Source: Candidatus Mailhella excrementigallinarum (GTDB lineage Bacteria > Desulfobacterota > Desulfovibrionia > Desulfovibrionales > Desulfovibrionaceae). Taken from it: a stretch of DNA of 64,000 nucleotides. Under the pieces are notes generated by a model. That model was not told the DNA's origin and searched no databases. It saw nothing but the letters and a program-made list of their open reading frames with translations. Below, one piece after another: positions 17,731 to 50,786 of the stretch. The translations under genes and the position numbers were made by a program. Each line of letters starts with the position of its first letter. The stretch's first letter is position 1. The stretch is from positions 62,001 through 126,000 of the forward strand of contig CALUUZ010000008.1 in NCBI GenBank assembly GCA_944324075.1, given 5' to 3'.

Positions 17731-17756
17731 ATTACTCCTCTGGTGCGGGTTAACTT

Positions 17757-33010: not shown

Positions 33011-33059
33011 GGTAATCCCCAGGGGAATGGAAAGGACGGCAGGGACGGCGCGGAAGGGA

Positions 33060-35300: not shown

Positions 35301-38042
35301 CTATTCATCCTCGATGTTTCTGACGTACATGCCGCCTTCCAGTTCGGCAAGCTCCGCCGCCTTCCTGAGCTGGGCCTCGCGCTGCTCCCGGGCCTTCTGC
35401 AGACGGGCGCGCTGCATGGCCTCGCGCTGAACCCGCGCTTCCTCCAGCATCTTGTCCCGCCGCTTTTCGAAGGTCAGCGTGGAACGCAGTGAAGCCATGC
35501 CCAGCGCGGCGATGCTGATGATGATCAGAAGAACCTTCTGAAGCTCCCAGAAGTTGAACTTGATGACGCGCTGGAGCCAGAGCAGGTTGAAACTGTCCCC
35601 GAAAAAGAGCAGCACGCACATGACGATCATGCACAGGATCAGGCTGACAAGCTCAATCCAGAAGAAGCTGCGCAGAAGAATCAGCACGAACAGCGTGGCG
35701 TCGCGCACCATGCGGAGAACCTTGAGCCGCTTTTCAAGCTTCGCCAGCTTTTCATCCAGCACGGGCTGGGAAGCCTGGGCCTGCCGGAATGCCTCGGGAG
35801 AATGAAAGTCGGAGGTGAACGCCTGGTTCAGGATGCCCGCGCAGGTATTGAAATCCCGATTGAATTCCACCAGCGCGCGCTGGAAGGGGAACCACGACGC
35901 TTCGTCCCGCACCACCTCCAGCACGCCGAGGTAAGCCTTGAAGCGTTCCTGCAGGCGCCTGATCTCCTGCTGGATAAAGGCGTTCATCTCCTCTTCGAGT
36001 TTGGGGCGGGTTCTGCATACGTTGAGGCAGGCCAGATAGTTCTCCGTTTCGCTTTCCCTGCGCAATTCGTCGATCCGCTCCAGAAACTTCGCCGCCTTTT
36101 CATGCTCCGGCGGAAACCATTTCCGCAGTTCCCTGCCCAGGCGATCCAGCTCGGCCCGCTCGGCGACGCACTTCTTGCGGGCATCCTGCCACAGGGGATA
36201 CACCGCCGTCATGAGGGCCACATGGCCGCGCTCCAGTTCGGGGTCAACCAGCAGACGGTTGAACAGCGCGGGGTCGGCGCGGATCTCGTCCGCAAACTGC
36301 GCCTGCACCGCTTCGGCAAAGCCCATCTTCACCCGGCAGACCAGCCTGCGGTAGACGGGCAGCTCCCACTGGGGCAGAAGGCGGCGAACCGTTTCATACA
36401 TCTCCATGGCGTCATTGAAGCGCCCCTGCACCTCGTGCAGGCGGGCCTGAAGGAACGTATGCCATGCCTGATGCAGGACGGAACTGCACAGAACCTCCGC
36501 CTCGTGCCAGAGGGCGGCCGCCGTTTTCAGATCGCCCCGTTCCATGGCGATGAAGCCCCGCAGGCTGCGCAGCCGCCAGTCGCGCATGACCCGGGCAATC
36601 GCGGCCTGCGTATCCTTGTCCAGCCCCGGAAGATCATTGGGAGAAGCGCGGCGGAAGCGTTCAAGCAGTTTCCAGACGGGGCTTTCCTCCGCCGGCGAAT
36701 GCTCCTCTTCCGGCTCGGCATGGATATCCTTGCCGGAAAGCTTCCATATCCGCTCGATGGAACGCGGCTGGATCACGTCGTTCACCGCGAACAGCGCGGA
36801 AAGCACCCGCCCGGCAGGCCCCTCCCTGTCCATCAGCCCGGCATAGGCCGCCGTTCCCTTGCGGTTCAGTCCCATCTCGATGGCGCGGTACGCCTCGTTG
36901 ATATCGCCGAGCGCAAGTTCGGAGCAGCCCTCCCAGAACCCCCGCGGAACAGGCTCCAGCCTGTGGCTGGGGCACCGGGCGGGATCATGGCTGCCCACTC
37001 CGCAGTAGAAACAGGGCTTGCGCCCGCCGAGAAGCTGCCCGGACATGAGCAGAGGCAGTGTTTCGCCCCGGCTCTCCCCGTCCGCCATGCGGACGGTGCA
37101 CCAGGTATCCATGGTGCTGTTCCCGCAGGAAAAGCTCAAATCCTGAATGGCGAAGCCCTCGCCCAGCAGATAGGCGTTGCGGTAGCTCATGTACGGATAG
37201 TCCGGCATGAGTCCGTCCCAGTTGATATTGACCTTGTGCGGAAGCTCGTTGTTGAAGTTCAGCCCGCGCCTGTCCACCACGGCGCTGACGCACGGCCAGT
37301 AGTGGGAAGGATCGAACTGCCGTATGCCGGAAAGCGCCAGCAGCAGCTCGCGCACCCATACGCGCAGCTTGCCGAGGTTCTCCAGCGGAACCATGAGATA
37401 GTTGTCGTTCAGGCTGTATTTCAGCTTCTGTTCGCGCAGAATGCTTTCCAGCCGTTCAAACAGGAAGCGCCAGCCCGCCTGAAAGGCCTTGTCCAGCGGA
37501 CTGCCCAGCGGACGCAGCAGCGCGTACCATCCCTGGGAGGACACATACGGCAGGCGCGGGTTGGCCCCGAGCCTGGTCCAGTCCAGAGAGGCCATTCCCT
37601 CCGGCGCGGCGGCCTGCGTGTAGCTGAGGCCGGGAATATTGGCGCCCAGCTCCTGCAGACGGGGATGAACCCACACTTGCAGTTCCGCCGCCGCTCCCGT
37701 AATATTCTGACGCGCCAGCGCGCCTTCCATGGAAACGGAAAGGCTCTGCCCCACCCCCACCTGGAGCGAGCCGGGAAATATCTGGGCCAGCGCGGTCGTG
37801 GCATTGTATTTGCCCCATACCACAAGCTTGGCCAGGGCAAGCAGGGCATCGGCGGAAAAAAAGAACCACAGGGCCTGATTTTCAATGCTGGTGACGCACA
37901 GACCGCCGTAATCCTGAAGGGTCTGCCCCACGTTGTGGTCCAGCTCGCCCTCCCAGGCCAGCCAGATGACGTACCCGTCGGAAGAGACGTTGACTTCCTG
38001 AAAGGAAGGCTGTTTTTCAAGCAGACTGGATATGGACGGCAT
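35301..38042 (-). CDS. Large membrane-anchored protein with CCHC zinc knuckle and TPR-like repeats, unknown function
   Basis: A 913-residue protein I cannot assign to a characterised family. It lacks a signal peptide. A central motif, C344-FY-C347-GVGS-H352-DPAR-C357, has exact CX2CX4HX4C zinc-knuckle spacing. Residues about 370-620 contain helical TPR-like segments (LRGFIAMERGDLKTAAALWHEAEVL and RLHEVQGRFNDAMEMYETVRRLLPQW). A coiled coil spans roughly 660-790, two or three hydrophobic helices lie at about 790-860, and the C-terminus is a highly charged Arg/Glu/Gln helix. It appears cytosolic and tethered near its C-terminus. It is divergent from the MoaE-like gene with only 32 bp between start codons. 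Function is not inferable from context. Confidence 0.85.
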   Translation of the reverse strand: MPSISSLLEKQPSFQEVNVSSDGYVIWLAWEGELDHNVGQTLQDYGGLCVTSIENQALWFFFSADALLALAKLVVWGKYNATTALAQIFPGSLQVGVGQSLSVSMEGALARQNITGAAAELQVWVHPRLQELGANIPGLSYTQAAAPEGMASLDWTRLGANPRLPYVSSQGWYALLRPLGSPLDKAFQAGWRFLFERLESILREQKLKYSLNDNYLMVPLENLGKLRVWVRELLLALSGIRQFDPSHYWPCVSAVVDRRGLNFNNELPHKVNINWDGLMPDYPYMSYRNAYLLGEGFAIQDLSFSCGNSTMDTWCTVRMADGESRGETLPLLMSGQLLGGRKPCFYCGVGSHDPARCPSHRLEPVPRGFWEGCSELALGDINEAYRAIEMGLNRKGTAAYAGLMDREGPAGRVLSALFAVNDVIQPRSIERIWKLSGKDIHAEPEEEHSPAEESPVWKLLERFRRASPNDLPGLDKDTQAAIARVMRDWRLRSLRGFIAMERGDLKTAAALWHEAEVLCSSVLHQAWHTFLQARLHEVQGRFNDAMEMYETVRRLLPQWELPVYRRLVCRVKMGFAEAVQAQFADEIRADPALFNRLLVDPELERGHVALMTAVYPLWQDARKKCVAERAELDRLGRELRKWFPPEHEKAAKFLERIDELRRESETENYLACLNVCRTRPKLEEEMNAFIQQEIRRLQERFKAYLGVLEVVRDEASWFPFQRALVEFNRDFNTCAGILNQAFTSDFHSPEAFRQAQASQPVLDEKLAKLEKRLKVLRMVRDATLFVLILLRSFFWIELVSLILCMIVMCVLLFFGDSFNLLWLQRVIKFNFWELQKVLLIIISIAALGMASLRSTLTFEKRRDKMLEEARVQREAMQRARLQKAREQREAQLRKAAELAELEGGMYVRNIEDE

Positions 38043-38074
38043 GTTTTTTTCCGTATGTGCAAGGAGTGAATGAC

Positions 38075-38437
38075 ATGGACATCAACAAAACCCTTATGGA
38101 ACTCAAGCAACTGCCCGGCTTTGCCGACAACGTGGGCATGATGCTCGTGCATAACGGCGTGGTGCGCGGCTGGGCCCGCGGGGATCATGCCCCCGTGGGC
38201 CGTGTCCGGGTGACTCCGGACAGGGCGCGCATGGAGGAAATCCGCGCCGAAATGGAGCGGCGTCCCGGCATTTTCAAAATCGTGGCCGAAGCCGCCGAAG
38301 GCGACCTGAAACCCGGGGACGACCTGCTCTTTCTCGTGGTCGCGGGAGATATCCGCGAACATGTGAAGGCCACCTTTGCCGAACTGCTCGACAGGATCAA
38401 GTCCGAAGCCGTGGTCAAGCAGGAATACCCCGCGTAA
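38075..38437 (+). CDS. MoaE-like protein (molybdopterin synthase large-subunit fold)
   Basis: A 120-residue protein resembling a short MoaE: NGVVRGWARGD near the N-terminus corresponds to the G-x-VR region. It continues with VRVTPDRARMEEIRAEMERRPGIFKIVAEAAEGDLKPGDDLLFLVVAG and ends DRIKSEAVVKQE, aligning with the LK...WK lysines (here Lys109 and Lys115). Canonical MoaE is about 150 residues and transfers sulfur from MoaD to make molybdopterin; this one lacks the usual PFWK context, so activity is uncertain. ATG 38075 follows AAGGAGTGAATGAC. No other moa genes are in the window. Confidence 0.72.
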   Translation: MDINKTLMELKQLPGFADNVGMMLVHNGVVRGWARGDHAPVGRVRVTPDRARMEEIRAEMERRPGIFKIVAEAAEGDLKPGDDLLFLVVAGDIREHVKATFAELLDRIKSEAVVKQEYPA

Positions 38438-38487
38438 CGGACGTTCCCGCGCCGTTATGCCTTATATCGGCATATCGCGTGAAAGCA

Positions 38488-39411
38488 TTATGGCAGGAAT
38501 CCGTTTCCGCCCTTCCCGGTTCTGGCCCTGGCCACCATCGAGCGCGTCAGAAGACGGCTTTCCAGCACGGTATCCCCCTCTCCGCCGCTGATTCTGTTGC
38601 TGAGAAACTCCAGACACCAGCCGGGAGCGGGGCGGCGCAGCAGCTCAAGCGGAGCCAGCCTTTCCTCTTCCGCCGGCAGGCGCTCCATGTACATGCGCGC
38701 GGCTGCGGGATATATGATATGATCCTCCGCCGAGGCAAGCACTATGCCGTTCAGCCAGGATACCTCCGCACTCGCCTCCATCGGCCTGCACAGCAGCATG
38801 GACGCAAGATCGGCATGACTGTCATCCTGCGATTCAAGAATGAGCATGAGGCTGTTGCGGGTCGAAAAGAGCTGCCCCGTATATTCAATGCAGTATTCTC
38901 CCTGCATGGAAAAGCAGCGCGTCATGACAAACGGATGTTCCAGACTCTCGAAGCGTATCAGCGACGCATGCACCGCGCCGAGGTTGTTGAGGACAAGATT
39001 GTACGCCAGAAATGCCCCCCGCAGCCGCTCGAACAGGCGTGAACTCTCCGCCGGAGAACAGGCGTCGAACGCCCTGAAGCGCAGGCCGGAATAGAGGAAG
39101 GAGCGGAAACGGGCGGCATGGATTCTGCGTTCCTCCTCCGAAATGCCGTTGGCGTCGCAAATCCGCCGCATGAAGGCGTCCAGTTCAAGATGAAAGTCCA
39201 CCGGCTCGATATTGGCCGCCCTGCAGAACTGCCGAAGCTTGGGGTAGCTGGGCAGATTCTGCCCGGCCCGCCAGGCGTTGAGCGTGGTGACGGTGAGCTG
39301 CCCCCCCGCGTCGCGGATCTTCTCCACCAGCACGCGCGGAGAGAGCAGCAGCAGGGAAAAACGTATCTTTTCCGCAAAATCCGCAATATCCGTAATGCCG
39401 TATCTGGGCAT
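38488..39411 (-). CDS. HTH-type transcriptional regulator facing the flavoprotein operon
   Basis: A 307-residue protein with an N-terminal helix-turn-helix (about 35-75; LTVTTLNAWRAGQNLPSYPKLRQFCRAANI) and a C-terminal alpha/beta region that I do not recognise, with CFSMQGEYCIEYTGQLFS as its best conserved-looking segment. ATG 39411 is preceded by CGGAGGTGGCG, the best ribosome binding site in the frame; an ATG at 39456 is an alternative. It is divergent from the flavoprotein operon across 555 bp that contain a 26-bp palindrome, so it probably controls that operon. The large second domain may bind a ligand. Confidence 0.75.
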   Translation of the reverse strand: MPRYGITDIADFAEKIRFSLLLLSPRVLVEKIRDAGGQLTVTTLNAWRAGQNLPSYPKLRQFCRAANIEPVDFHLELDAFMRRICDANGISEEERRIHAARFRSFLYSGLRFRAFDACSPAESSRLFERLRGAFLAYNLVLNNLGAVHASLIRFESLEHPFVMTRCFSMQGEYCIEYTGQLFSTRNSLMLILESQDDSHADLASMLLCRPMEASAEVSWLNGIVLASAEDHIIYPAAARMYMERLPAEEERLAPLELLRRPAPGWCLEFLSNRISGGEGDTVLESRLLTRSMVARARTGKGGNGFLP

Positions 39412-39800
39412 CGCCACCTCCGGGCCGTCTCCGGCAGGGATTTCCCGTTCATGCATCCAGAGCAGATCAGCTTTGAACTTTTGCAGTTTTAAAGTCCGGG
39501 GACACGCCCGCTCCGGCATCTGACAGCGCAAAGAACTGCGCCTGCGCCTGCGCGGCGGCCGCCTGCTCCGCAGTCGGAAGGGCATTTTCAGGCCGAAAAT
39601 GCTCCATATGGGGTGAAGCGCCGACATCCCGGACCGTCCCCGGGGTTCCATGCCCGGAGCCGGAAAAACGCGAAACTCCCGCCGCGCTCTGCTTCCGTGT
39701 CCATGTTCAGGCCGGGCCGCTTTCAATATCAGCATAATTCCATGCGGAGAACCGCGTCAACTGCATCGGCGCGCATGTCGTGCCCCGCGGCCTTCGTCTT
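39412..39800. other. Intergenic region between regulator and flavoprotein operon, left part
   Basis: About 390 bp with no repeat of families A to D and no supportable gene; short open frames in it match nothing. It may hold the regulator promoter. Together with the palindrome and leader peptide that follow, it makes up the divergent control region. Confidence 0.4.
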
Positions 39801-39826
39801 TGAATGTCTGTCCGGACAGACATTCA
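39801..39826. promoter_or_regulatory. 26-bp perfect palindrome, candidate operator
   Basis: TGAATGTCTGTCC followed directly by its exact complement, with weaker symmetry continuing outward (CGTC on the left, GACG on the right). It lies 141 bp before the flavoprotein start and about 390 bp from the divergent regulator start. A perfect even palindrome of this length without a T run suits a dimeric DNA-binding protein better than a terminator. The HTH regulator encoded alongside is the obvious candidate, by inference only. Confidence 0.6.
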
Positions 39827-39940
39827 GGGACGAAACAAGGCAAATGAAAGGGAAAAAATATTGTTGAGGAGTTTCGGGGCATCATGTATCAGGGACAATA
39901 AGGAAGCTCCCCGCGGTTCTGTCGCCGCCGGGAGGAAGTT

Positions 39941-39970
39941 ATGCCCCTTCAGCAAAGGAATTTTCGATGA
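39941..39970 (+). CDS. Nine-codon leader peptide overlapping the flavoprotein start
   Basis: An ATG with a strong ribosome binding site (GGGAGGAAGTT) opens a frame encoding MPLQQRNFR. It ends at a TGA that shares bases with the ATG of the flavoprotein gene (ATGA). The flavoprotein has its own AAAGGAATTTTCG site inside the leader frame. The overlap suggests translational coupling or a control peptide. It is too short to recognise by homology, so expression is unproven. Confidence 0.45.
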   Translation: MPLQQRNFR

Positions 39971-41712
39971 AAACACTGCAATGCGACGTCGCCGTCGTCG
40001 GAGGCGGCCCGGCCGGGACCTTCGCCGCCGTCAAGGCGGCGGAAAACGGAGCCAGGGTCATCCTGCTCGACAAGGGCTATGTCGGCAAGAGCGGATGCGG
40101 CACCTTCGGCGCGGGTTCCTTCAAGGCCTGGCTCAGGGAGGAGGACTCCCTCGATCTGTGGTACGGCAAGGCGGTGGAGGAAGGCTTTTTCATCAACGAT
40201 CAGGACTGGCTGAAAAAGCATTTCGACACCATCGGCGACCGCGTGAAGGAGCTTGAGGCATGGGGCGTGACGTTCGAGAAGAACGAGGACGGCACCTACC
40301 GCCGCATCGAAGGCCAGGGGTCTTCCGACAAGCGCCCGATCAAGACGCTCATGTTCCACGGCCCGCAGTTCATGGAAGTGATGCGCAGGGTCTGCCGAGA
40401 AAAGGGCGTGACCATCGTGGACAGGGTCATGGTTGACGCGCTGCTGCACGACAGGGACAACCCCCGCGCCATCCGCGGCGTCGTCGGCTTTCACGGCGTC
40501 AGCGGGGAAATGCATGTGGTCAGGGCCAGGGCCGTGGTGCTCACCGCCGGCGCGCAGGCCTACAAGTCCCATTACGCCGATCTGCACATGGAAACGGGCG
40601 ACGCCCATATCATGGGGCTTGAGGCCGGAGCCGCCCTTGCCAACTATGAATTCAACTGCCATCAGCTCACGCACGGAAACTTCGCCACGCACGGCATGAA
40701 CGTCTCGCAGGGGCTCGGCGCGAAGTTCGTCAACGCCCTCGGGGAGGATTTCACCGCAAAATACGATCCGGAATACGCCTCGCACGGCAACCTGTGGCGT
40801 ATTTCCGCATCCATGGCGATGGAAGTGAAATTCGGGCGCGGTCCGCTCTATTTCGACTACTCCTCCTACACGCCGCAGGACTGGGAACTGTTCGAGCGCA
40901 CCCTGCCTCTCATGTACCGCTCGTACGAGCAGGCCGGTTATGTGGACGGAAACCGCAGGGTCATCCAGGGCAAACTGAGCTGGGTATCCGCGCTGATCGG
41001 CAATGTCGGCTTCGGCGGTGGCCTGTTCATCGACCTTGACGGGCGCACCACCCTTGAGGGGCTGTACGCGGCGGGCGACGCTTCCTACGGCCCCACTTCC
41101 GGCGTGGAAGGATTCTGCGCCTATGCCATGCCCGCGGCATCCACCACCGGAGCGGCCGTGGGAGAGGCCAGCGCGAAATATGCCGCCACTGTGGGCAGTT
41201 TCGAGATCGACGAGGCCGAAGTCGAAAGCCTGACGCGGAAACTCACCGCCCCGCTGCGCAATCCGCAGGGCGTGGACCCCTCCCATGTGGTCATTGCCGT
41301 GCAGGAAGCCCTGTTCCCCTATGACGTCTACATCCTGCGCACGGAGGAAAAGATGCTCGCCGCGCTGAAGCGCATCCGCGAAATCAAGCGGCATGACGTG
41401 CCCCGCCTGCGCGCGCTGGACGCCCACGGCCTGCGTTTTGCGCTGGAAGCCCGGAACATGGTTCTCAGCGCGGAAGTCATGCTTGCCGCCGCCCTGCACC
41501 GCAAGGAAAGCCGCGGTTCTCACCTGCGCCTCGACTACCCGGAAATCGACAACGAAAACTGGCTGAAATGGATACTTGTCGAACTCCGGGACGACGAACC
41601 GGTTCTGAGCACAAGGGACATTCCCATTGAACGTTATCCGCTCCGTCCGGAGCACAAGCGTGAACTGCACGCGTCCATCGCCGCCGCCAGAAGACTCGGG
41701 GAGGAAATATAA
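39967..41712 (+). CDS. FAD-dependent fumarate-reductase/AprA-like flavoprotein
   Basis: A 581-residue flavoprotein of the succinate dehydrogenase/fumarate reductase/adenylylsulfate reductase alpha family. The FAD-binding Rossmann motif is VAVVGGGPAGTFAAVKAAENG (residues about 8-28). A GKSGCGTFGAG segment follows and GLYAAGDASYGPTSGVEGFCAYAMPAA closes the FAD domain. A helical C-terminal domain (about 420-580) is present, as in this family. There is no signal peptide, so it is cytoplasmic. The next gene, overlapping by one base, encodes a dicluster ferredoxin, an AprAB-like pairing. Dedicated APS reductase is usually longer and adjacent to sat or qmo, absent here, so a different substrate is likely. 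Confidence 0.85.
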   Translation: MKTLQCDVAVVGGGPAGTFAAVKAAENGARVILLDKGYVGKSGCGTFGAGSFKAWLREEDSLDLWYGKAVEEGFFINDQDWLKKHFDTIGDRVKELEAWGVTFEKNEDGTYRRIEGQGSSDKRPIKTLMFHGPQFMEVMRRVCREKGVTIVDRVMVDALLHDRDNPRAIRGVVGFHGVSGEMHVVRARAVVLTAGAQAYKSHYADLHMETGDAHIMGLEAGAALANYEFNCHQLTHGNFATHGMNVSQGLGAKFVNALGEDFTAKYDPEYASHGNLWRISASMAMEVKFGRGPLYFDYSSYTPQDWELFERTLPLMYRSYEQAGYVDGNRRVIQGKLSWVSALIGNVGFGGGLFIDLDGRTTLEGLYAAGDASYGPTSGVEGFCAYAMPAASTTGAAVGEASAKYAATVGSFEIDEAEVESLTRKLTAPLRNPQGVDPSHVVIAVQEALFPYDVYILRTEEKMLAALKRIREIKRHDVPRLRALDAHGLRFALEARNMVLSAEVMLAAALHRKESRGSHLRLDYPEIDNENWLKWILVELRDDEPVLSTRDIPIERYPLRPEHKRELHASIAAARRLGEEI

Positions 41713-41933
41713 TGGGCATCCGGCATATCGACTACGACAAGTGTACCCGCTGCGGCCGCTGCGTGACCTACTGCCCGCAGGACGTTCTGCGCCCCGACGG
41801 GGAAAGGCGTCCGGTCATCACCTATCTTCAGGACTGCCAGTCCTGTTTCCTGTGCGAAAAATACTGCCCGGCCGGAGCCATTGCCGTTTCCGCCGACCGG
41901 GAACGGCGGCCCATCCTGCCGTGGAAAATCTGA
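41712..41933 (+). CDS. Dicluster [4Fe-4S] ferredoxin, partner of the flavoprotein
   Basis: A 73-residue ferredoxin with two cluster motifs, CTRCGRCVTYCP and CQSCFLCEKYCP. The ATG overlaps the flavoprotein stop (TAATG), so equimolar co-synthesis is expected. It is shorter than AprB, which has a long C-terminal extension, and more like a minimal electron-transfer subunit. It probably passes electrons between the FAD of the flavoprotein and a low-potential carrier. Confidence 0.93.
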   Translation: MGIRHIDYDKCTRCGRCVTYCPQDVLRPDGERRPVITYLQDCQSCFLCEKYCPAGAIAVSADRERRPILPWKI

Positions 41934-42063
41934 CGGGAAGACCGGGAACATGCTCCGGAACGCCGTCCTCCCGGCCAGGGCGGCGTTCCGGCACGCAGCC
42001 GGCAGACAATATCCCCGGCTTCCGGCAGTCAGGAAGCCGGGACAGCACATGGAGGACATTCCC

Positions 42064-42201
42064 ATGATAGCCAACATGCCCGCCTCAACCTTCCTCCTGT
42101 ACATCGGCGCATTTCTGGCCCAGTTCGTCTTCGTCATCGCCTACGGCATCTGGTGGTGCCTTCAGGGCCGCGGCGCTTCGGACAAAAACAAGCGGAACTG
42201 A
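42064..42201 (+). CDS. Small single-helix membrane protein, symporter accessory type
   Basis: A 45-residue protein, MIANMPASTFLLYIGAFLAQ leading into one membrane helix (about 8-32, ending YGIWWCLQG), followed by a short charged tail. Small proteins of this kind commonly sit directly upstream of sodium:solute symporter genes and are described as symporter accessory proteins. The spacing here is 12 bp, and GGAGGACATTCCC precedes the ATG. It could stabilise or assemble the symporter. About 130 bp between the ferredoxin stop and this start contain no gene. Confidence 0.7.
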   Translation: MIANMPASTFLLYIGAFLAQFVFVIAYGIWWCLQGRGASDKNKRN

Positions 42202-42213
42202 GGGAGACACGTC

Positions 42214-43680
42214 ATGATGATCGCCATTCTCGTCGTCTATTTCGGCCTCATGCTGTTCATCGGATACCTTGCCTCGCGCCGGGTCAAGGACTCCAGGGAC
42301 TACTTTCTCGGCGGCAGGGGCTTCGGCCCCTGGTTCACCGCCTTCAAGTTCGCCGCCACATGGGAAAGCGGCGTCAAGCTGGTGGGCAGTCCGGGCATGG
42401 CATGGAACGCCGGCTGGTCGTCCCTGGCCATGGGGATCGGCACCCCCCTGTGCTACTTCTTTTCCTTCCGCGTGTTCGGGCAGAGGCTCAAGCTGGCCTT
42501 TGACCATTTCAACGTGCTCACCCTTCCGCAGATGCTGGAAAAACGCTACGACAGCCGCGCCGTGCGCGTCATTTCCGCCGTCGCCATCCTGATCGGGCTG
42601 GGCGGATCGCTGGTGGCGCAGTTCAAGGCCACCGGGGAAATCTTCTCCGCCATTCTCGGCACGGACTATCCGGCCGGCCTGCTCATCGGCTCCGTCATCG
42701 TGGGAATCTACTGCATCATGGGCGGTTATCTCGCCTCGGTCTGGACCGACTTCATCCAGGGCATCATCATGGTGTTCGGCTCCGTCGCCATTTTCGCGGC
42801 CACGGCGCATGCGGCCTTCGGCGGGCTCTCTCCCGACCTTCTGTCCCAGCTCAACGCCGCGCTCGGCTCCATCGATCCCAACCTGCTCGACATCACGGGC
42901 GGCGGCAAGATGAGCTGGTCCAACCTGTTCATCATCCTCGCCATCACCATGCTGGTGGGCATCGCCATGCCCCAGCAGAGCGTGGCCATCTTCTCCATGC
43001 GCGACGTGCGCACCGCGCGCGTGGCCATGATCGTCTGCGTGGTGTTTTCCGCCATTCTTGCCTGGAGTCTGGCCCTGACCGGGATGATGAGCCACATGGT
43101 GCTTGATCCGGCGGACGTGAAGAATCCCGATCTGGTCATTCCCCTGCTCATCCCCAGGGTGCTCTCTCCCCTGCTCGGCGGCATCTATCTCGCCGCGGTG
43201 CTTGCCGCCATCATGTCCACGGTGAGCGGTTCCATCGTGGTGGCGGCCTCCTCGCTGACGGAGGACATCTTCAAGCTGGCCATTCCCGAACGCTACAACC
43301 GTTCCCCCATGTTCTACAACCGCGTGGGCTCCACAATCTTTGTCCTTCTGCCCCTGCTTCTTGCCGTCAAACCCCCGGCCATCATCTTCTGGATCGGCGT
43401 CTTCGCCTTCGGCTTCCTGGTGTTCACCTTCCTCATGCCCATGGCGGGCGTCATCCTGATCCCCTCCGCAACCAGACAGGCCGTCATCGTCCAGATGATC
43501 AGCACCATGATCATCATTCCCGTCTGGACCATCTGGCTCCAGAAGGCCACGGGCATTCCCGCCCTGCTCATCGGCCTGATCGGCGCGCCGCTCATCTTTT
43601 TCATCGTCAACGCCGTCTGCAGGAAAAGCGAACCGGCTCCGGAAATCCACGCGCTGTGGGACAAGTTCCGCCAGCTCTGA
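42214..43680 (+). CDS. Sodium:solute symporter (SSS family)
   Basis: A 488-residue transporter of about 13 membrane helices. It shows SSS-family features including GRGFGPWFTAFKFAATWESG near the N-terminus, LTLPQMLEKRYDSRAVR, and a GGYLASVWTDFIQGIIMVFG segment. It uses the sodium gradient for uptake; relatives carry proline, pantothenate, carboxylates or sugars, and the substrate cannot be read here. GGGAGACACGTC precedes the ATG. It follows the small accessory protein and precedes two more genes on the same strand, so its cargo is probably the substrate of the operon enzymes. Confidence 0.93.
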   Translation: MMIAILVVYFGLMLFIGYLASRRVKDSRDYFLGGRGFGPWFTAFKFAATWESGVKLVGSPGMAWNAGWSSLAMGIGTPLCYFFSFRVFGQRLKLAFDHFNVLTLPQMLEKRYDSRAVRVISAVAILIGLGGSLVAQFKATGEIFSAILGTDYPAGLLIGSVIVGIYCIMGGYLASVWTDFIQGIIMVFGSVAIFAATAHAAFGGLSPDLLSQLNAALGSIDPNLLDITGGGKMSWSNLFIILAITMLVGIAMPQQSVAIFSMRDVRTARVAMIVCVVFSAILAWSLALTGMMSHMVLDPADVKNPDLVIPLLIPRVLSPLLGGIYLAAVLAAIMSTVSGSIVVAASSLTEDIFKLAIPERYNRSPMFYNRVGSTIFVLLPLLLAVKPPAIIFWIGVFAFGFLVFTFLMPMAGVILIPSATRQAVIVQMISTMIIIPVWTIWLQKATGIPALLIGLIGAPLIFFIVNAVCRKSEPAPEIHALWDKFRQL

Positions 43681-43688
43681 TTCTCCTC

Positions 43689-43718
43689 CGCGTCCGGCGT
43701 CACCCGGCGCCGGACGCG
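43689..43718. other. Perfect 11-bp GC hairpin between symporter and next gene
   Basis: CGCGTCCGGCG pairs exactly with its complement across 8 bases, just after the symporter stop. A run of A rather than T follows on the plus strand. It may protect or partially terminate the upstream mRNA. Confidence 0.45.
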
Positions 43719-43737
43719 AAAAACACGGAACACGACC

Positions 43738-44397
43738 ATGACCCCGCAAACGGACGCCATACTCCTCAACTCCACCCGCGTGGAATGGGACGAGAATCGC
43801 CTTGCCCGGCGTTATGCCTTCTTCCGCAGACTGCGGGGCAGGGTCCGGCTGGATCTGCTGTACTACCCCTACTGGCTGGCGGAACTGCGCGGCAGGGCGA
43901 AATGGCGCTTCTTCGGAGAAAGGCCCCTTGTCCTGCTTCTGGCCGTTGACGCCCGCTCCGGACGCTGCCTGCGCATCAGCGCCCCTCCCGCGCTGCGGGA
44001 AGAGAGCCTTGTCCCCGCCGGAACCGTGAAAGGGGAAGGCTTTTTCCCCGCCGTCCTTGAAGGCGCCGGGGATTCCCGGACGGTGCAGGCGCACGTCGCC
44101 GGGAATCATATCGGGGAAGAGTGCGCGAAGCGCGCGGCCGAAACCTTTGCGCTCAGCGCATGGGGCCGCCGCTGCAACCTTCCGCTCGGCCCGCGCGCCG
44201 ATATCGTCTGCACGGATCGGCAGATCGCCCTCCTGCACAAGCCGTTCTGGATCATGACTCCGGACGGGGATGCGGAACAGCGGAAGGAAAAACTGTTCAT
44301 CTTTGACGCCAGCACAGGACTCGGAGGACTCTCCGAGTACTGGAACATAGCGGAATACGTCATGGAACTGCGCGGCAGGAACGCGCCTTCCGCCTGA
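43738..44397 (+). CDS. Uncharacterised 219-residue protein in the flavoprotein operon
   Basis: I do not recognise a family. The product is soluble-looking with no signal peptide or clear membrane helix, and is rich in Arg and Leu. A run of basic and aromatic residues (RLDLLYYPYWLAELRGRAKWRFFGE, about 38-62) is followed by beta-rich segments, and the end reads KLFIFDASTGLGGLSEYWNIAEYVMEL. GAC/CGC codon use matches its neighbours, which supports a real gene. It lies between the symporter and the beta-eliminating lyase in the same orientation, suggesting a part in the same process. Confidence 0.7.
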   Translation: MTPQTDAILLNSTRVEWDENRLARRYAFFRRLRGRVRLDLLYYPYWLAELRGRAKWRFFGERPLVLLLAVDARSGRCLRISAPPALREESLVPAGTVKGEGFFPAVLEGAGDSRTVQAHVAGNHIGEECAKRAAETFALSAWGRRCNLPLGPRADIVCTDRQIALLHKPFWIMTPDGDAEQRKEKLFIFDASTGLGGLSEYWNIAEYVMELRGRNAPSA

Positions 44398-44469
44398 CGT
44401 TCCCTTCTTTCGCCATTCAGGCCCGCGGGTCACAGGCCCGTCCCTTCACATAAACCAGAGGTTTTTCTC

Positions 44470-45858
44470 ATGCAGCACGCACTTCCCGAACCTTTCCGCT
44501 TCAAGGCCATCGAACGCATCCATCTGCCCTCCGCGGAGGAACGCGAGCAGGCGCTGAAGGAAGCAAACTTCAACATGTTCGCGCTCAAGGCCAGGGACGT
44601 TTATATCGACCTGCTTACCGACTCCGGCACCGGCGCGCTGAGCAAGGAACAGTGGGCGGCCCTCATGCTGGGCGACGAGTCCTACGCGGGAGCCGACAGC
44701 TTCTTCCGTCTCAGGGAATCCGTGAAGGAGATGCTGGGCTTCGACCACGTCATCCCCGCGCATCAGGGGCGCGCGGCGGAAAACATCCTTATCGGCTCTC
44801 TGGTGAAGCCCGGAGATCTCATCCCCATCAACATGCCCTTCGACACCACCCGCGCCCACATGTTCAACGCGCAGGCCACGCCCGTCAACTGCGTGGTGGA
44901 CGCGGCCTTCCAGCCCGAACTTGAACAGCCCTTCAAGGGCAACGTGGATATCGCCAGACTGGAAGACGCCCTCAGGACGCACGGCGACAGGATTCCCTTT
45001 GTCATGGTCACCGTCACCAACAATTCCGGCGGCGGTCAGCCCGTGAGCCTGCAAAACCTGCGCGATGTCAGCGCCGTGGCCGGAAAGTACGGCAAAAAGC
45101 TGTACCTCGACGCCGCGCGCATGGCGGAAAACGCCTTCTTCATCAAGGAAAGGGAGCCGGAATGCGCCGGAATGAGCGTGGCCGCCATTCTCAGGGCCAT
45201 GATGGATACAGCCGACGGCGCGACCATTTCCTGCAAGAAGGACCCCATGGTCAACATAGGGGGCCTGGTTGTGCTGCGCTCCGAAGAGGACTATATGCGC
45301 CTGCTGCCCCGCGTGGTTCTGTTTGAAGGCTTCATCACCTACGGGGGACTGGCCGGGCGCGATCTTGACGCGCTGGCCGTGGGCCTGCGGGAAATGGCGG
45401 ACGAGGAGTATCTGGCCCACCGCCTGAGCCAGGTGCGCATGCTCGGCGACATGCTCATCGAGGGAGGCGTGCCGATTATCCGCCCTGTGGGCGGACATGC
45501 CATTTTCATCGACGCGGGGCGCTTCTTCCCCCACATTCCCCAGAAGCATTTCCCGGCCGACGTGCTTTCCATCGAAATCTACAGGGAAGGCGCCGTGCGC
45601 GGCGTGGGCCTCGGCGCGCTGGCATTTGAGGACAAGGACCCTGTGACCGGCGAAAAGATCATGCCCAAACTGGAGCTGTACCGCATGGCCATAGCGCGCC
45701 GCACATACTCCAACAGCCATATGGAGTACATCGCGCGGACGGTGATCGAGGTGTACAGGCGGCGCGACGCCGTGCGCTACGGGCTCAGACTCACCTATGA
45801 ACCGCCGGTTCCCGGCATTACGCACTTCCTTGCGCGTCTGGAGCCGTTCGCGCTCTAG
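44470..45858 (+). CDS. PLP-dependent beta-eliminating lyase (tyrosine phenol-lyase / tryptophanase family)
   Basis: A 462-residue fold-type I PLP enzyme that cleaves an amino acid side chain to give pyruvate and ammonia. The N-terminus LPEPFRFKAIERI and IDLLTDSGTGALS are family hallmarks, and the PLP lysine is Lys257 in SCKKDPMVNIGG. Overall wording (KEQWAALMLGDESYAG, YGGLAGRDLDALAVGLRE, VNIGG) is closest to tyrosine phenol-lyase. However, the TPL Thr124 position is Asp125 here, and the Met379/Arg381 positions are Val379/Leu381, which are tryptophanase-like. I therefore leave the substrate open. It ends the operon; its TAG stop abuts an A repeat. Confidence 0.9.
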   Translation: MQHALPEPFRFKAIERIHLPSAEEREQALKEANFNMFALKARDVYIDLLTDSGTGALSKEQWAALMLGDESYAGADSFFRLRESVKEMLGFDHVIPAHQGRAAENILIGSLVKPGDLIPINMPFDTTRAHMFNAQATPVNCVVDAAFQPELEQPFKGNVDIARLEDALRTHGDRIPFVMVTVTNNSGGGQPVSLQNLRDVSAVAGKYGKKLYLDAARMAENAFFIKEREPECAGMSVAAILRAMMDTADGATISCKKDPMVNIGGLVVLRSEEDYMRLLPRVVLFEGFITYGGLAGRDLDALAVGLREMADEEYLAHRLSQVRMLGDMLIEGGVPIIRPVGGHAIFIDAGRFFPHIPQKHFPADVLSIEIYREGAVRGVGLGALAFEDKDPVTGEKIMPKLELYRMAIARRTYSNSHMEYIARTVIEVYRRRDAVRYGLRLTYEPPVPGITHFLARLEPFAL

Positions 45859-46024
45859 CCGGAGCATTTTCGACCCGAACATGCCCCCCGGAGTCGAGCG
45901 GGGCGGGACTGCGCCGCGACGCCGGAGCAGCCGCAATTCACCTGCGGCGCCAGCGGACAGGGGGCGGCTGTGCCGCCGCGCCGGGCCTGCGTCTGACGGC
46001 CGGCGCTCCGGAGCATTTCACGCT
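45856..46024. repeat. Intergenic repeat family A, copy between convergent genes
   Basis: Starts TAGCCGGAGCATTTTCG at the lyase stop codon and contains CAATTCACCTGCGGCGCC. It ends CCGGAGCATTTCACGC, overlapping the last codons of the convergent methyltransferase gene. Both ends read GGAGCATTT, so here they are direct rather than inverted, suggesting rearrangement. Confidence 0.65.
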
Positions 46025-46788
46025 GCGGAGTGCCGGCACGCGGACGGCAGCCAGAACCGCTCCACCCTGGCGGGCGGCAGGTTGCGGGGAATGAAACGGA
46101 GGATGTCGCGCCGGAAGCCGTTCCGCGCATAGGGGGACTCTCCCAGCAGGGCATAGGTGAACTGGATGACGCAGCCCCTGCCGCCGATGACCTTTTGTAT
46201 CTGTTCAAGTATCGCCCCGCGCAGGGCGGAAGGGAAGTTCATCAGCGGCAGGGAGGAGACCACGGCAAGCACCGCGTCAGTTTCCGACACATAGGAAGAC
46301 AGCAGCGCGGCATCCCCCTGCACGACATTCAGCTCCGGAAACTTTCCGCGCAGGATGCGGCAGAACTCGGGCGAGCGCTCCAGCACCAGCAGGCGGGACG
46401 GGGCAACGCCTCTGGCCAGAATGGCCCGCGTCACCGCTCCGGTTCCCGCGCCGATTTCGATCACCAGCCCTTCGCCGTCCGGAATGCAGGCGGCCATGGA
46501 TGCCGCAAGCTGCGCGCCGCTGGGACAGATCGCTCCCACTGTCCGGGGGTGACGCACCAGCTCCGCGGCAAAGCGGGGCGCGTTCCGCCCCCGGCGCAGA
46601 ACCGCGCGCCCGTCGCGCAGCACGCGCAGACCGATTCTCCGTATGTTCCGGGGCATCCGGACGGGGATTCCCGCTTTCCCGCGCATGCCGGAAAACCCGT
46701 TCAGCTTTCCGACGCCGCCCCTGATGCCTTCCATGACCGGATTTGAGCGGATCAATATGCCCAAACCGCTTAACCAGCGAGTTTTCAT
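46018..46788 (-). CDS. SAM-dependent methyltransferase, phospholipid N-methyltransferase / KsgA-like group
   Basis: A 256-residue protein with a long basic N-terminus (1 to about 70) and a Rossmann methyltransferase core. SAM motif I is VIEIGAGTGAVTRAIL, preceded by the RHPRTVGAICPSGAQLAASMA segment typical of PmtA-like phospholipid N-methyltransferases. LLVLERSPEF and VVSSLPLMNFP follow. Substrate could be phosphatidylethanolamine or another amphipathic molecule. AAAGGAAATACTG precedes ATG 46788. Its last codons overlap the end of an A repeat, so its C-terminus may have been altered by the insertion. The upstream gene ends 11 bp before it, suggesting co-transcription. Confidence 0.82.
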   Translation of the reverse strand: MKTRWLSGLGILIRSNPVMEGIRGGVGKLNGFSGMRGKAGIPVRMPRNIRRIGLRVLRDGRAVLRRGRNAPRFAAELVRHPRTVGAICPSGAQLAASMAACIPDGEGLVIEIGAGTGAVTRAILARGVAPSRLLVLERSPEFCRILRGKFPELNVVQGDAALLSSYVSETDAVLAVVSSLPLMNFPSALRGAILEQIQKVIGGRGCVIQFTYALLGESPYARNGFRRDILRFIPRNLPPARVERFWLPSACRHSAA

Positions 46789-46799
46789 CAGTATTTCCT

Positions 46800-49310
46800 T
46801 TATGGTTCTCCGCCCGCGCCGGAGCCAAAATACACGTCCCGCCCGGTGTTATCAACATGCCCCCCGAGCCTTTCCCCGCAACATCCGGAAGACCGCGGCT
46901 CAGCATTCCCCGCGGGGCGCGGCCATGCGCACTTCAGGGATTCGGCGGCAAGGCGGGCCTCCATATACAGCGAGAGCACGGAAACAGCCCTGTCGCATAC
47001 CGTGAACACGGGGATGTTCCGCGCCCGGAGCGCGCGGCGCAGAGGCTCGAACAGTTCGCCGCCGTCCACCACCGCGGCCAGCGGCTTGGAGCTGTTTTTC
47101 CTCACTTCCGCAAGACGGGCAAGAATGCCCTCCGGCGCGTTCATGTCAAAGAGGCCGCCGTCGTCCGCCAGCGTGCGCGTCACCGGAGAAAGCGGGTCCA
47201 GCCCGACGACCACGGCGTCGATATTGTCATCCTCCAGCATGAGTTCCGCCATGCGGGCGTGGATTTCATCGTCCGCGGCGGGATTGATGTCCAGAGGGTT
47301 GCCCACGGTCACCAGCCGTTCCAGCCCCCGGGACGCGACAAGTTCGCTCATGGCCGCGCGCGTGGCGTCCGAAAGACGGCCCAGGCTCATGCTGTACTCG
47401 TCGGCCTGAATGGAATCCGCCATGCCCACGGCCTCAAAGCCCGCGCCGCTGACCGCGCCGAGCCGCTTGCCCCTGATGCGCACGCCGCTGAAGCACTCGG
47501 CCAGCAGGATAAGCTCCTGAAATTCCGTAAAGCTGCGGGCGATGATGGCTCCGGCCTGGCGCATGCAGTTCTCGCACACCATGTAGTCGCCCGCCAGCGA
47601 CGCCGTATGGCCGCTGGTGGCGCTTCTGCCTTCCGGAGTGCGCCCCGCCTTGTAGAACACCACCTGCCTGCCCGCGCACACGGCATCGCGCACGGCCCGC
47701 GCAAAGGCCAGCCCGTCCATGTCCCTGAAGCCCTCGGCGTACACCGCGATAACGTCCACGTCTCCGGAATCCCTGAAATAGCGCATCATGTCGCCAAGGG
47801 AGAGATCCGTCTGGTTGCCCATGGAAATCATGTACGCCGGGCGCATTTCCGGGGTCTGACTGAATCGGTTGAGCAGAAAGGCCCCGCTCTGGCTGATCAC
47901 GGCCACGCGCCTGGGCGCGCCGCTTCTGTCGCGCGGCAGCTTGGCGGAAGGGATGAACCATGTGTCATAGTTCCCCGGACGGGAAACCACCCCCATGCAG
48001 TTGGCTCCCAGAAACACCGGGCCGCCGTCGCCCTTCCCGTGGGCCGCGGCGATGCGTTCCGCCATGCGGGCGGCCATTTCCCGGCTCTCCTCCGTTTCTC
48101 CCATGCCTCCCGGAATCAGCATGACGCTGCGCGCGATGTTCCTCCTGATAATCTCGTCGACCAGCGCGGGAACCTGCGGAGCGCCTATCGCCACAACAAG
48201 CAGATCCAGCGGTTCGGAAAGCTCCGCCAGACGGGACACGCAGCGGATGCCGCTGACGTCCCGCCCTCCTTCGCGCACAATGACCACACGTTCCGGATCG
48301 TATCCGGCCTCCAGAACATTTTCCAGAATGACGCGCCCGAAATTCCTTCGTGTGGCGGAAACGCCCGCAATCCCGATGCTGCGGGGATGCAGCAGGCTGT
48401 CTATCCCGGCGGCGGGACGTCCGGGCGGAAGGCCGCCCGGCAGGGAAAAGCGGCACATGCCGTCCAGGGGCACCATCAGATAGTCGGTGAAGGTGAAGGG
48501 ATTGATTTCCAGCTCGTCGATCACGAAGGGGGCATCCGGATTGCAGGGAGAAAAATAATTGCCCATCCGGATGAAGGACTCAAAGCACTCGATGAGCTGA
48601 TCGTCCGTGACGATTCTCCGCTGGCCCCGCGTAAGCCCGGCCAGCTTGCGATAGGATACCGTCCTGCGGAACAGATCGAAAAACGCGTGTCCGTCCGTCA
48701 TTTCCGTCAGTGCGGCCACGATGGCCTGCCCCTTGCGGAAACGTTCGGCGTAAAGCTCGGCGTCCGTCCCGCCCAGACCGGCGCTGATCACCATGCCGAA
48801 CTCGCGGGTACGGCGCAGCCCCACGATCAGCTCATTGCCGAAAGCCGGAGAGTCCGGCGGCATGAACTGCACCAGGAGCACGCCCCGCAGGTCTCCCGCC
48901 ACGGCGTTCCGCAGCGCGGCACCTTCCAGCCCCCGGTACGCCGCAGGCGCGGCGTCCTGATTGCGCGCGATCCACTCGGCGTAGCGTTCGGGCACTTCGG
49001 ACAGCATGCGTCTGACGGCGGAGCGTATTCTGTCCGGCGTTTTCGGCACAATGCGCACGCCGCCCACCTCGGTCTTGTGGATGATGGAAGGCGACACGAT
49101 CTTGAGCACCGCCATCTCTCCCGGCAGGGCCATGAGTTCTTCCTCCGCCGGGCGGACGTTTCCGGGCAGAAACAGACTCCTGGGCGGCGTTTCCGATCCG
49201 GAAAGGGACAGCAGGCTGTACACCTCGTATTCGTACAGAAAGTTCCGCCCTTCCTGCCGGGCATTGCGGAAAAGTTCCGCTATGGGCTGGTATTCTATGG
49301 TCAGATCCAT
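46800..49310 (-). CDS. ADP-forming acyl-CoA synthetase, fused subunits in ATP-grasp-first order
   Basis: An 836-residue enzyme of the nucleoside-diphosphate-forming acyl-CoA synthetase family (acetyl-CoA + ADP + Pi to acetate + ATP). The N-terminal third is an ATP-grasp domain (LKIVSPSIIHKTEVGGVRI; GVLLVQFMPP; ELEINPF). From about residue 300 follow a CoA-binding Rossmann domain (LLHPRSIGIAGVSATRRNFG) and a succinyl-CoA-synthetase-like ligase region with the phosphohistidine segment SGHTASLAGD. Most fused homologues have the CoA-binding part first, so this order is less common. ATG 49310 follows CAAGGATGCACC. It could conserve energy from acyl-CoA made during amino acid fermentation. Confidence 0.87.
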   Translation of the reverse strand: MDLTIEYQPIAELFRNARQEGRNFLYEYEVYSLLSLSGSETPPRSLFLPGNVRPAEEELMALPGEMAVLKIVSPSIIHKTEVGGVRIVPKTPDRIRSAVRRMLSEVPERYAEWIARNQDAAPAAYRGLEGAALRNAVAGDLRGVLLVQFMPPDSPAFGNELIVGLRRTREFGMVISAGLGGTDAELYAERFRKGQAIVAALTEMTDGHAFFDLFRRTVSYRKLAGLTRGQRRIVTDDQLIECFESFIRMGNYFSPCNPDAPFVIDELEINPFTFTDYLMVPLDGMCRFSLPGGLPPGRPAAGIDSLLHPRSIGIAGVSATRRNFGRVILENVLEAGYDPERVVIVREGGRDVSGIRCVSRLAELSEPLDLLVVAIGAPQVPALVDEIIRRNIARSVMLIPGGMGETEESREMAARMAERIAAAHGKGDGGPVFLGANCMGVVSRPGNYDTWFIPSAKLPRDRSGAPRRVAVISQSGAFLLNRFSQTPEMRPAYMISMGNQTDLSLGDMMRYFRDSGDVDVIAVYAEGFRDMDGLAFARAVRDAVCAGRQVVFYKAGRTPEGRSATSGHTASLAGDYMVCENCMRQAGAIIARSFTEFQELILLAECFSGVRIRGKRLGAVSGAGFEAVGMADSIQADEYSMSLGRLSDATRAAMSELVASRGLERLVTVGNPLDINPAADDEIHARMAELMLEDDNIDAVVVGLDPLSPVTRTLADDGGLFDMNAPEGILARLAEVRKNSSKPLAAVVDGGELFEPLRRALRARNIPVFTVCDRAVSVLSLYMEARLAAESLKCAWPRPAGNAEPRSSGCCGERLGGHVDNTGRDVYFGSGAGGEP

Positions 49311-49354
49311 GGTGCATCCTTGTGAAAAAGCCGGACAGCAGAGCATTTTCGCCC

Positions 49355-49402
49355 GGCTCTGTCATGGAGCCGTGTTGACAGCGTTGCGCGGGGCGCATCG
49401 TT
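49355..49402. repeat. Left-end fragment of repeat family C
   Basis: GGCTCTGTCATGGAGCCGTGTTGACAGCGTTGCGCGGGGCGCATCGTTTTGC matches the first 48 bases of the C copy at 51033 and then stops where an A repeat begins. The piece is preceded by an A-type end (GAGCATTTTCGCCC), so several elements have inserted into one another here. Confidence 0.7.
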
Positions 49403-49572
49403 TTGCGCTCGAAAATATCTGCGGCCAGCCCCTGTGTTCCGGCCCGCAGCTTTCACGCCTGAAGCCGGAGCTGTACGCCGCAAGCGGATTGCGGCGACAC
49501 CGGAGGAGGGGACGGCGCGGCTTCAGTCCCGCCCCGCTCGACTGAAGTGGAACATTTCAGCAGCGAAATGTT
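49403..49572. repeat. Intergenic repeat family A within a composite
   Basis: A well conserved copy with GAAAATATCTGCGG, TTCCGGCCCGCAGCTTTCAC, CGCCGCAAGCGGATTGCGGCG and the terminus CAGCGAAATGTTCC. It is bounded by a C fragment on the left and the right end of a B element (CCGTAAACCTGAGCGGAGCC, 49580-49599) on the right. Confidence 0.75.
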
Positions 49573-49674: not shown

Positions 49675-50592
49675 CTACGCCATCTGCTGGATGCCGTCCA
49701 GCCGCCAGGAATCGTCTCCGTCCCGGCCGCGCACGAAATGCCACAGCTCGCGGACCTGCTCGGGCTTGGCCTGATCGGGGTCTTCCCGCATCAGCACGTC
49801 AAAGAGAACCGACGCCATCTGCTCGCCGCCCTCTTCGCGCACTTCCACCACGGAAGCATCCACCTTGAGCAGTTGCGTCACGCCGGGGTTGGGGTCTTCC
49901 GCATACTGGGCGCGCAGTTCCGTCAGCACGGCAGGCGTGGCGAACTGGGCGATATCGTCCAGATCCCGGCGATCCCAGGATTCCTGAAGGCGGGTATAGG
50001 CCATTTTCGCTCCGCGCAGAAATTCCTCCTGATTGAAGTCGGCGGGCACAGCCGAGGCGCGGGGCATGTCATGGCTCCGACTTCCGGAGGCGTCCGTCAG
50101 CCTGTCCCAGGAAGAAGCGCCCGGCGCGGCTTCGGAACGGGGTTCCGCCCGGTAGCGGGACACGGCATCCTCCCCGGCCTGCTGATTTGCCTTGAAGCGG
50201 CGGAACAGCCTGATGCCGAAATAGACCACAAGACCAATCAGGATCAGATCCAGCAGGCCGCCGCCGGCACCGGCTCCCGCCATGCCGTTGCCGAACAGCA
50301 TGGAGCCGATGAAGGTTCCTGCCAGCAGACCGCCCAGCATGCCGCCCCAGCCGGGCCGGCTCATGGCGGCCGCTCCCGCTCCGGCGGAGGGATTCGTCTG
50401 CTGACGGAAGGTATTGCTTTCCTGCCGGAAGGCGCCGCCCGGAGCGGAAGGCGCGGCGGGGCGGCTCATGCTCGGCGAGCTGCCGAAGCTTCGCCCGCCC
50501 CCAAGCCGCCTGGCATCCGCATCCGAAGGCATGCTCAGGGAAAACGCCGCCATGCAGGCGACGCACAGAGTCAGAACTTTCCATGTTTTCAT
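49675..50592 (-). CDS. Tim44-like domain membrane protein
   Basis: A 305-residue protein with a signal peptide or N-terminal helix (KVLTLCVACMAAFSLSM), a Gly/Ser/Pro-rich linker (about 30-80) and one or two hydrophobic helices (about 85-130). A C-terminal Tim44-like domain (about 180-305) is rich in Asp and Glu: FLRGAKMAYTRLQESWDRRDLDDIAQFATPAVL, then VEVREEGGEQMASVLFDVLMRED. The bacterial family is membrane-anchored and of unknown function. The ATG is 50592; the codon before it is TTG, which would give one extra residue. Its ribosome binding site, AAAGGAATTTTTG, is the end of a family D repeat. A terminator follows the gene. Confidence 0.88.
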   Translation of the reverse strand: MKTWKVLTLCVACMAAFSLSMPSDADARRLGGGRSFGSSPSMSRPAAPSAPGGAFRQESNTFRQQTNPSAGAGAAAMSRPGWGGMLGGLLAGTFIGSMLFGNGMAGAGAGGGLLDLILIGLVVYFGIRLFRRFKANQQAGEDAVSRYRAEPRSEAAPGASSWDRLTDASGSRSHDMPRASAVPADFNQEEFLRGAKMAYTRLQESWDRRDLDDIAQFATPAVLTELRAQYAEDPNPGVTQLLKVDASVVEVREEGGEQMASVLFDVLMREDPDQAKPEQVRELWHFVRGRDGDDSWRLDGIQQMA

Positions 50593-50773: not shown

Positions 50774-50786
50774 TAATGATTCCTTT

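Follow-up and report, generated by a model that had tools for sequence, protein, structure and literature searches.

The locus considered here raises the question of whether a flavoprotein, a ferredoxin, a transporter and a lyase that lie side by side in a gut bacterium serve a single pathway. It is the redox-transport-lyase gene set of a Mailhella-type Desulfovibrionaceae genome (Candidatus Mailhella excrementigallinarum, GCA_944324075.1; 3.71 Mb in 51 contigs), and was analysed within a stretch of 64 000 nt from contig CALUUZ010000008.1, hereafter termed the window. Using open reading frame (ORF) and family searches, we were able to confirm the arrangement given in a preliminary description: six co-oriented genes on the forward strand and a divergent regulator on the reverse strand. 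The six encode a flavin adenine dinucleotide (FAD) flavoprotein (FP, 581 aa, 39967–41712), a small 2[4Fe-4S] ferredoxin (Fd, 41712–41933), a 45-residue protein (S45, 42064–42201), a sodium/solute symporter (SSS, 42214–43680), a 219-residue protein (U219, 43738–44397) and a lyase (44470–45858), separated by − 1, 130, 12, 57 and 72 bp, respectively. The regulator (REG, 307 aa) occupies 38488–39411, and was thus excluded from the range first described, which began at 39412. Conserved homologues of all seven are present in relatives (for REG and the lyase, in some genomes only), and none of the seven is therefore a chance frame. The reading we prefer, to which we assign a probability of roughly 0.5, is that of a five-gene uptake and flavin-redox cassette onto which a tryptophanase has been grafted under its own regulator.

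A five-gene core and its two forms

Fifteen window proteins were compared with 14 stretches from genus mates and 20 loci from named genomes. Eleven of the latter proved orthologous (FP identity 78–95 %), many of them being the same contigs as the genus stretches, and nine were remote (< 29 %). This genome-neighbourhood check, suggested in the preliminary description, had a divided outcome: on every contig long enough to cover them FP, Fd, S45, SSS and U219 stand in this order, but the lyase is absent from several loci. The true unit is five genes, not six. All five are present in Desulfovibrio sp. An276 (L064) and in the metagenome-assembled genome E41 bin132 (L063), with identities of 78–79 % for FP, 68 % for SSS and 31–36 % for U219; neither locus has a match to the lyase or REG at E 0.001, and by eye the next gene is porin-like. 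Within the genus, full-length FP and SSS are 86–92 % identical to the window proteins, whilst U219 shows only 49–62 %, indicating a much higher rate of evolution for U219. Nine of 19 genus genomes were found to contain it; amongst the 119 genomes searched, its profile had no match below E 0.1 in the 100 from outside the genus, and when a single sequence was used to search 149 genomes sampled from the class, the window genome alone was returned (the two Desulfovibrio loci come from a collection separate from both searches).

The lyase was detected in six of 59 genomes, window genome included, all of this genus. In what we term type A it follows directly after U219, as seen in all five loci readable at this point (the window, G006, G004, G011 contig 45 and G015 contig 17); the sixth lyase, in G007, lies 178 bp from a contig end, and its upstream side is unreadable. 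Type B comprises loci that are lyase-free with that side readable (G014, G017, G018, G007 contig 11 and G015 contig 18), to which the two Desulfovibrio loci are added. REG stands beside FP in the window, G006, G011 contig 4 and G015 contig 5; type B loci (G014, G017, G018 and G015 contig 28) gave no REG match beside FP, and the contigs of G004 and G007 stop short of FP, making the REG side unreadable. G011 contig 13 was left outside both types, because REG is missing there and yet its SSS groups with that of type A G004. G015 and G007 each contain two copies, one with the lyase (in part) and one lacking it, which offers a natural comparison for cassette function, and G011 perhaps holds both types as well; contigs within G015 and G011 were joined by inference.

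Trees of 12 rows each were made for U219 and SSS, in which three of nine and four of nine inner branches, respectively, were well supported. In the U219 tree, for which the Desulfovibrio loci (devoid of the lyase) serve as outgroup, all type A rows fall into a single clade (100/99) within the lyase-free ones, and in the SSS tree type B forms one side of a branch (99/98). Type A is, on firm grounds, a derived form that adds the lyase, REG and an operator. The simplest account would be one gain of all three, perhaps accompanied by exchange of FP–SSS between copies.

The preliminary description had proposed a single pathway. What stands of this is that FP, Fd, S45, SSS and U219 belong together and that the lyase follows U219 at every readable type A locus; what falls is the need for all six genes, as seven loci (five Mailhella, two Desulfovibrio) hold the cassette with no matching lyase. 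These same seven loci, along with the 72-bp gap before the lyase, lend some weight to the tentative alternative that lyase and cassette are independent functions sharing a promoter, the former being an ordinary tryptophanase for signalling or nitrogen. The constant place of the lyase in five of five loci speaks against such independence, as does the observation that REG and the operator are seen only in the lyase-bearing form.

The flavoprotein–ferredoxin pair, the symporter and U219

Pfam matches (PF00890 and PF02910) place FP, an FAD flavoprotein, in the SdhA/FrdA/NadB/AprA superfamily and give it an SdhA-type C-terminal domain. It was first described as AprA-like, and the superfamily holds; the label itself does not, as the AprA model TIGR02061 gives 80.8 bits against a cut-off of 641.75. 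The best NCBIfam model, PRK08275 (209.6 bits), is likewise under its cut-off of 587, and no fumarate reductase, succinate dehydrogenase or aspartate oxidase equivalog cut-off is reached (NadB, 139 bits against 452.75). Amongst PDB entries the alpha subunit of the Methanothermococcus 3′-phosphoadenosine 5′-phosphosulfate (PAPS) reductase is the best match (8a8o, 133.2 bits), yet it is no nearer than succinate dehydrogenase (132.2 bits). Full-length orthologues of FP are 78–92 % identical.

FP was aligned with SdhA and aspartate oxidase, and then with 20 homologues from 17 loci. It has other residues where the HPTG histidine, the second histidine and the NR-motif arginine align, which we take to form the dicarboxylate site of the SdhA/NadB kind; the usual residues are missing in the alignment with the 20 homologues, in which row L021 keeps the NR motif. 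Histidines 232 and 236 are near these places, and Arg278 is two residues off the place of the arginine aligned in E. coli SdhA, presumably the catalytic one. By score or by residues, FP does not class as an AprA, a fumarate reductase or an aspartate oxidase. Fd carries two CxxCxxCxxxCP motifs and matches Fer4 families, and its start codon overlaps the FP stop by 1 base, in keeping with the overlapping dicluster ferredoxin first reported. As it also follows FP in orthologous loci (80–95 % identity), Fd is the probable partner subunit of FP.

The window genome contains 26 matches to FP, itself included. Twenty-four are near full length, one of these with an internal TGA, and several motif types are represented. 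We took eight of these FP-family stretches and mapped five (L077, L078, L080, L081 and L082). Each of the five has an FP-like gene next to genes for an Fe-S protein and a transporter of the DASS- or TRAP-like type (assigned by eye; L077 alone was confirmed by profile, its transporter matching DASS below the cut-off). This suggests that cassettes for import and redox are habitual in the genome. DsrA was detected (648.5 bits against a cut-off of 392.85), and an AprA search of the genome gave 35 matches, none of which passed the cut-off (best 99.2 against 641.75).

The nearest FP paralogue (34 %) is in L077 (G000 contig 5; 844–4694 and 4763–10430), next to a gene of the aromatic amino acid lyase family, an SSS gene and genes for a 60-aa protein and a 171-aa orphan; then come a divergent PrpR-like regulator, the FP paralogue itself, Fd and a DASS-like transporter. 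At the place of the methylideneimidazolone (MIO) cofactor triad, which we take to be Ala-Ser-Gly, the lyase-family protein has GSIGESDL.

For the symporter, the original claim was borne out by PF00474 (170.9 bits, cut-off 22.8). Its nearest models are panF (223.1 bits against 328.05) and PutP (189.1 against 515.5); it shares the SSS family with PanF and PutP, but falls below both cut-offs and is preceded by S45, which has no Pfam or NCBIfam match at E 0.01. Members of the family carry small organic solutes, and PutP-type symporters carry amino acids. S45 has one probable membrane span (by eye), and its homologues precede the symporter with 74–84 % identity; the presence of a small protein before SSS was thus correctly noted, whilst the term accessory reflects this position.

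These features also bear on a rather unlikely alternative, in which FP–Fd oxidises an imported compound, such as an amino acid, and passes electrons via Fd to sulfite respiration, making the cassette an electron-donor module. A genome with DsrA needs donors, an amino acid is what a PutP-type symporter would bring in, and FP does match the NadB model at 139 bits. The NadB cut-off of 452.75 is not reached, however, and other residues stand at the places of the HPTG histidine and NR-motif arginine, even though histidines 232 and 236 are near.

The window U219 matched nothing in Pfam, NCBIfam or PHROGs, and compared with PDB sequences gave matches only at E 0.38 or more. Amongst ten members of its family, DUF1651 was matched by one (E 0.0028) and BphC_D1 by one (E 0.077). 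An AlphaFold2 model with a predicted local distance difference test (pLDDT) score of 86.5 had no counterpart amongst PDB folds at E 0.001 or better. U219 therefore remains, as first described, without a convincing family or PDB match, and apparently represents an undescribed family. Three candidate relationships were set aside. A DnaJ-like giant-virus protein from a viral fold library (E 1.5 × 10− 4, probability 1.00) superposed with a root mean square deviation of 14.3 Å over 248 columns, and was not used. A link to P0001 (171 residues, L077, beside an ammonia-lyase-like gene and a second SSS gene) is unproven: hhalign probabilities were 5.9, 31.8, 9.4 and 10.8 %, the U219 profile does not report P0001 in the genome at E 5, and local alignments reached a shuffle p ≤ 0.05 in six of eight U219 rows for P0001 and in three of eight for one homologue, in a test using two of the four rows of the P0001 family. 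An internal repeat (PYW...DA.SG, twice) gave p < 0.02 in only two of eight rows and is not claimed.

The lyase, REG and the region upstream of FP

The lyase matches PF01212 (238.4 bits) and passes only the broad subfamily model NF009709 (613.9 bits, cut-off 285). It stays below the tryptophanase equivalogs NF053783 (561.8 against 750) and TIGR02617 (444.3 against 825.8), and below the phenol-lyase equivalog TIGR02618 (526.2 against 720.7). Its best PDB match is tryptophanase (486.9 bits), with phenol-lyase next (442.0 bits). The overall score therefore does not decide between the two. Lys257, which we take to be the pyridoxal phosphate lysine, and Tyr72 and Arg405, presumably general family residues, are identical in all six lyase rows. 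According to PMC5805759, indole-lyases are marked by Asp137, Phe304, Val394, Ile396 and His463 (E. coli numbering), the phenol-lyase counterparts being Thr124, Met288, Met379, Arg381 and Phe448. At these positions the window lyase has Asp125, Phe288, Val379, Leu381 and His452, identical in six of six rows (window included). It thus matches four of the five indole-lyase markers, with Leu for Ile in one case, and none of the phenol-lyase markers. Tyrosine phenol-lyase was rejected on this basis and by its score under the TIGR02618 cut-off. The tryptophanase-type residues are firm, and on their strength the enzyme is probably a tryptophanase, which narrows the original assignment to the wider tyrosine phenol-lyase/tryptophanase family.

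A more distant alternative is that the lyase acts on an S-alkylcysteine, its sulfoxide or even cysteate, yielding a thiol, sulfenate or sulfite for a sulfite respirer. Enzymes of this family are known to take S-substituted cysteines, DsrA is present, and the residue before position 381 is Gly in the window lyase where the five aligned enzymes have Glu (four) or Asp (one). We consider it improbable, given that the ring-side residues are those of indole-lyases and best fit an indole leaving group.

Upstream of FP, REG begins with MPRYG in all four rows (70–82 % identity to the window protein), although longer in-frame starts exist at 39456 and 39735. The helix-turn-helix regulator originally reported is upheld as a divergent gene, with weak profile evidence for the domain: HTH_3 matched one of three homologues at E 0.19 (12.2 bits against 23). 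Searches of the PDB (E 1) and PHROGs (E 0.5) gave no match. A probable helix-turn-helix lies at the N terminus, the remainder appearing to fall outside known families.

Between REG and FP we found a perfect 26-bp palindrome (39801–39826) inside a 42-bp imperfect one (39793–39834; overlapping 23-base arms, 91 % complementary). It is the sole gapless palindrome with arms of ≥ 10 in the window, and its arm length of 13 occurred in none of 40 first-order Markov windows, where the longest was 11. A core, RTCTGT-N4-RCAGAY, lies 154–161 bp before FP in all four loci with REG; it is absent from four of four type B loci, the one unassigned locus and both Desulfovibrio loci. Since the four type A loci served to define the pattern, what is informative is that other loci lack it. 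Symmetry varies, from the 13-bp perfect arms of the window to 15-bp arms around six bases in L067 and the short core only in L057 and L065. The palindrome is a probable operator, and we infer that REG binds it. Genome-wide the core has eight distinct sites (reversed-pattern control, none). Five of the other seven are inside called ORFs and two outside, none recognised beside FP or SSS; a regulon is therefore not claimed.

A tentative promoter-like stretch precedes FP on the forward strand (39861–39890; TTGTTG ... TATC, by eye in a four-locus alignment), with TTGTTG in three of four type A loci; neither the consensus scan nor a pattern search found it. The scan gave two promoter-like sites against 1.4 expected and 11 terminator-like sites against 6.9 expected, and an Rfam search of 37000–47000 returned nothing above the gathering score.

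Proposed function and genomic context

In the reading we prefer, SSS, with S45, would import a small organic compound together with Na+, and FP would act upon it in the cytoplasm, more likely reducing than oxidising it, with electrons passing via the two Fd clusters; U219 may be a lineage-specific helper of the cassette. A role for FP as a reductase is proposed by analogy, and draws on the 24 near-full-length members of its family in a genome with DsrA and no AprA over the cut-off, as well as on the five mapped stretches that pair an FP-like gene with Fe-S protein and transporter genes. Some Mailhella cassettes would then have gained the 3′ tryptophanase and the 5′ divergent regulator with its palindromic operator. 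The type A lyase would cleave tryptophan or a closely analogous compound to yield indole, ammonia and pyruvate, and oxidation of the pyruvate could give reduced ferredoxin that feeds FP. The coupling of side-chain chemistry to ferredoxin-level redox, as originally put forward, is not directly supported.

A number of points weigh against this reading. Dehydrogenases share the domains of FP, and the path from pyruvate via ferredoxin to FP is putative. The structure model of FP is poor (pLDDT 48.4), leaving the sequence as the sole basis for reading its active site. On the lyase, the phenol-lyase model outscores one of the tryptophanase models, TIGR02617, albeit not the other. In the SSS tree type A does not form one clade, two changes being needed. 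Finally, the 130-bp gap between Fd and S45 holds an inverted repeat of 11 pairs (42013–42042) inside the operon; the single operon of the preliminary description is for this reason likely, rather than certain, to be one transcript. Such a hairpin could stabilise or attenuate the mRNA.

Further reaching, and in our estimation improbable, is the notion that type A forms a self-contained respiratory module, in which electrons from tryptophan-derived pyruvate pass through FP–Fd to a second imported compound. This compound might be an indole or a relative of the aromatic amino acids, and U219 would be a new kind of helper. Were it true, such cells would produce both sulfide and indole.

Very unlikely is that FP–Fd is an unorthodox adenosine 5′-phosphosulfate (APS) or PAPS reductase, as proposed for gene pairs of Bilophila, since the methanogen PAPS reductase subunit is its best PDB match only at the level of succinate dehydrogenase, 80.8 bits fall far short of the AprA cut-off, and the pair travels with a symporter of a family carrying small organic solutes in a locus where no sulfur-metabolism gene was noticed. 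PMC11610557 describes two such pairs in Bilophila wadsworthia, of low AprAB similarity, that carry a putative AprAB annotation; growth of the strain was better with APS. Like AprAB and these pairs, FP–Fd unites a flavoprotein and a small ferredoxin of the same superfamily, in a neighbouring genus; unlike AprAB, FP is far under the AprA cut-off and is accompanied by a symporter and U219. That a related genome has many flavoproteins of the family and no AprA over the cut-off suggests that the AprAB labels on the low-similarity pairs deserve a test.

The TnaA operon, tnaCAB, resembles the lyase end of our locus in the catalytic and ring-side residues of the enzyme and in its nearness to a transporter. 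It differs in that here the transporter is an SSS protein, FP, Fd and U219 precede the lyase, and there is a divergent regulator with a palindrome. Urocanate reductase (UrdA) is, according to PMC10882135, a flavin reductase that lets gut anaerobes use organic electron acceptors. FP similarly binds FAD and belongs with flavoproteins broadly of the fumarate reductase type, but is paired with a 2[4Fe-4S] Fd, has an SdhA-type C-terminal domain and shows no flavin mononucleotide-binding domain amongst its Pfam matches. No account of the gene set was found amongst the 10 or 12 top-ranked papers of literature searches aimed at it, most subscription journals lying outside the search. The combination appears to be undescribed, though most parts are of known types.

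In PMC13219744 and PMC10507020, Mailhella species are portrayed as probable isethionate and sulfite respirers, a picture which the presence of DsrA with no AprA over the cut-off fits. The 24 near-full-length flavoproteins, again with no AprA over the cut-off, leave much of the acceptor or donor range unexplained. Mailhella and Bilophila are both gut sulfide formers, and B. wadsworthia is reported (PMC11610557) not to make indole; if the lyase does make it, its carriers would differ from that species.

Beyond REG, at 35301–38437, the locus is adjoined by genes for a MoaE-family protein and a divergent 913-aa protein, and Candidatus Mailhella merdavium (L057) has the same neighbours. Downstream of the operon (46800–49346) the opposite strand encodes an 848-aa protein with domains of the acyl-CoA synthetase (ADP-forming) type, the ATP-grasp part being N-terminal. 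The window also contains dispersed repeats of ∼30–150 nt in two to four copies each (e.g. 16736–17908, 32824–33011, 49355–49521, 50586–51342 and 59519–60021), apparently outside genes.

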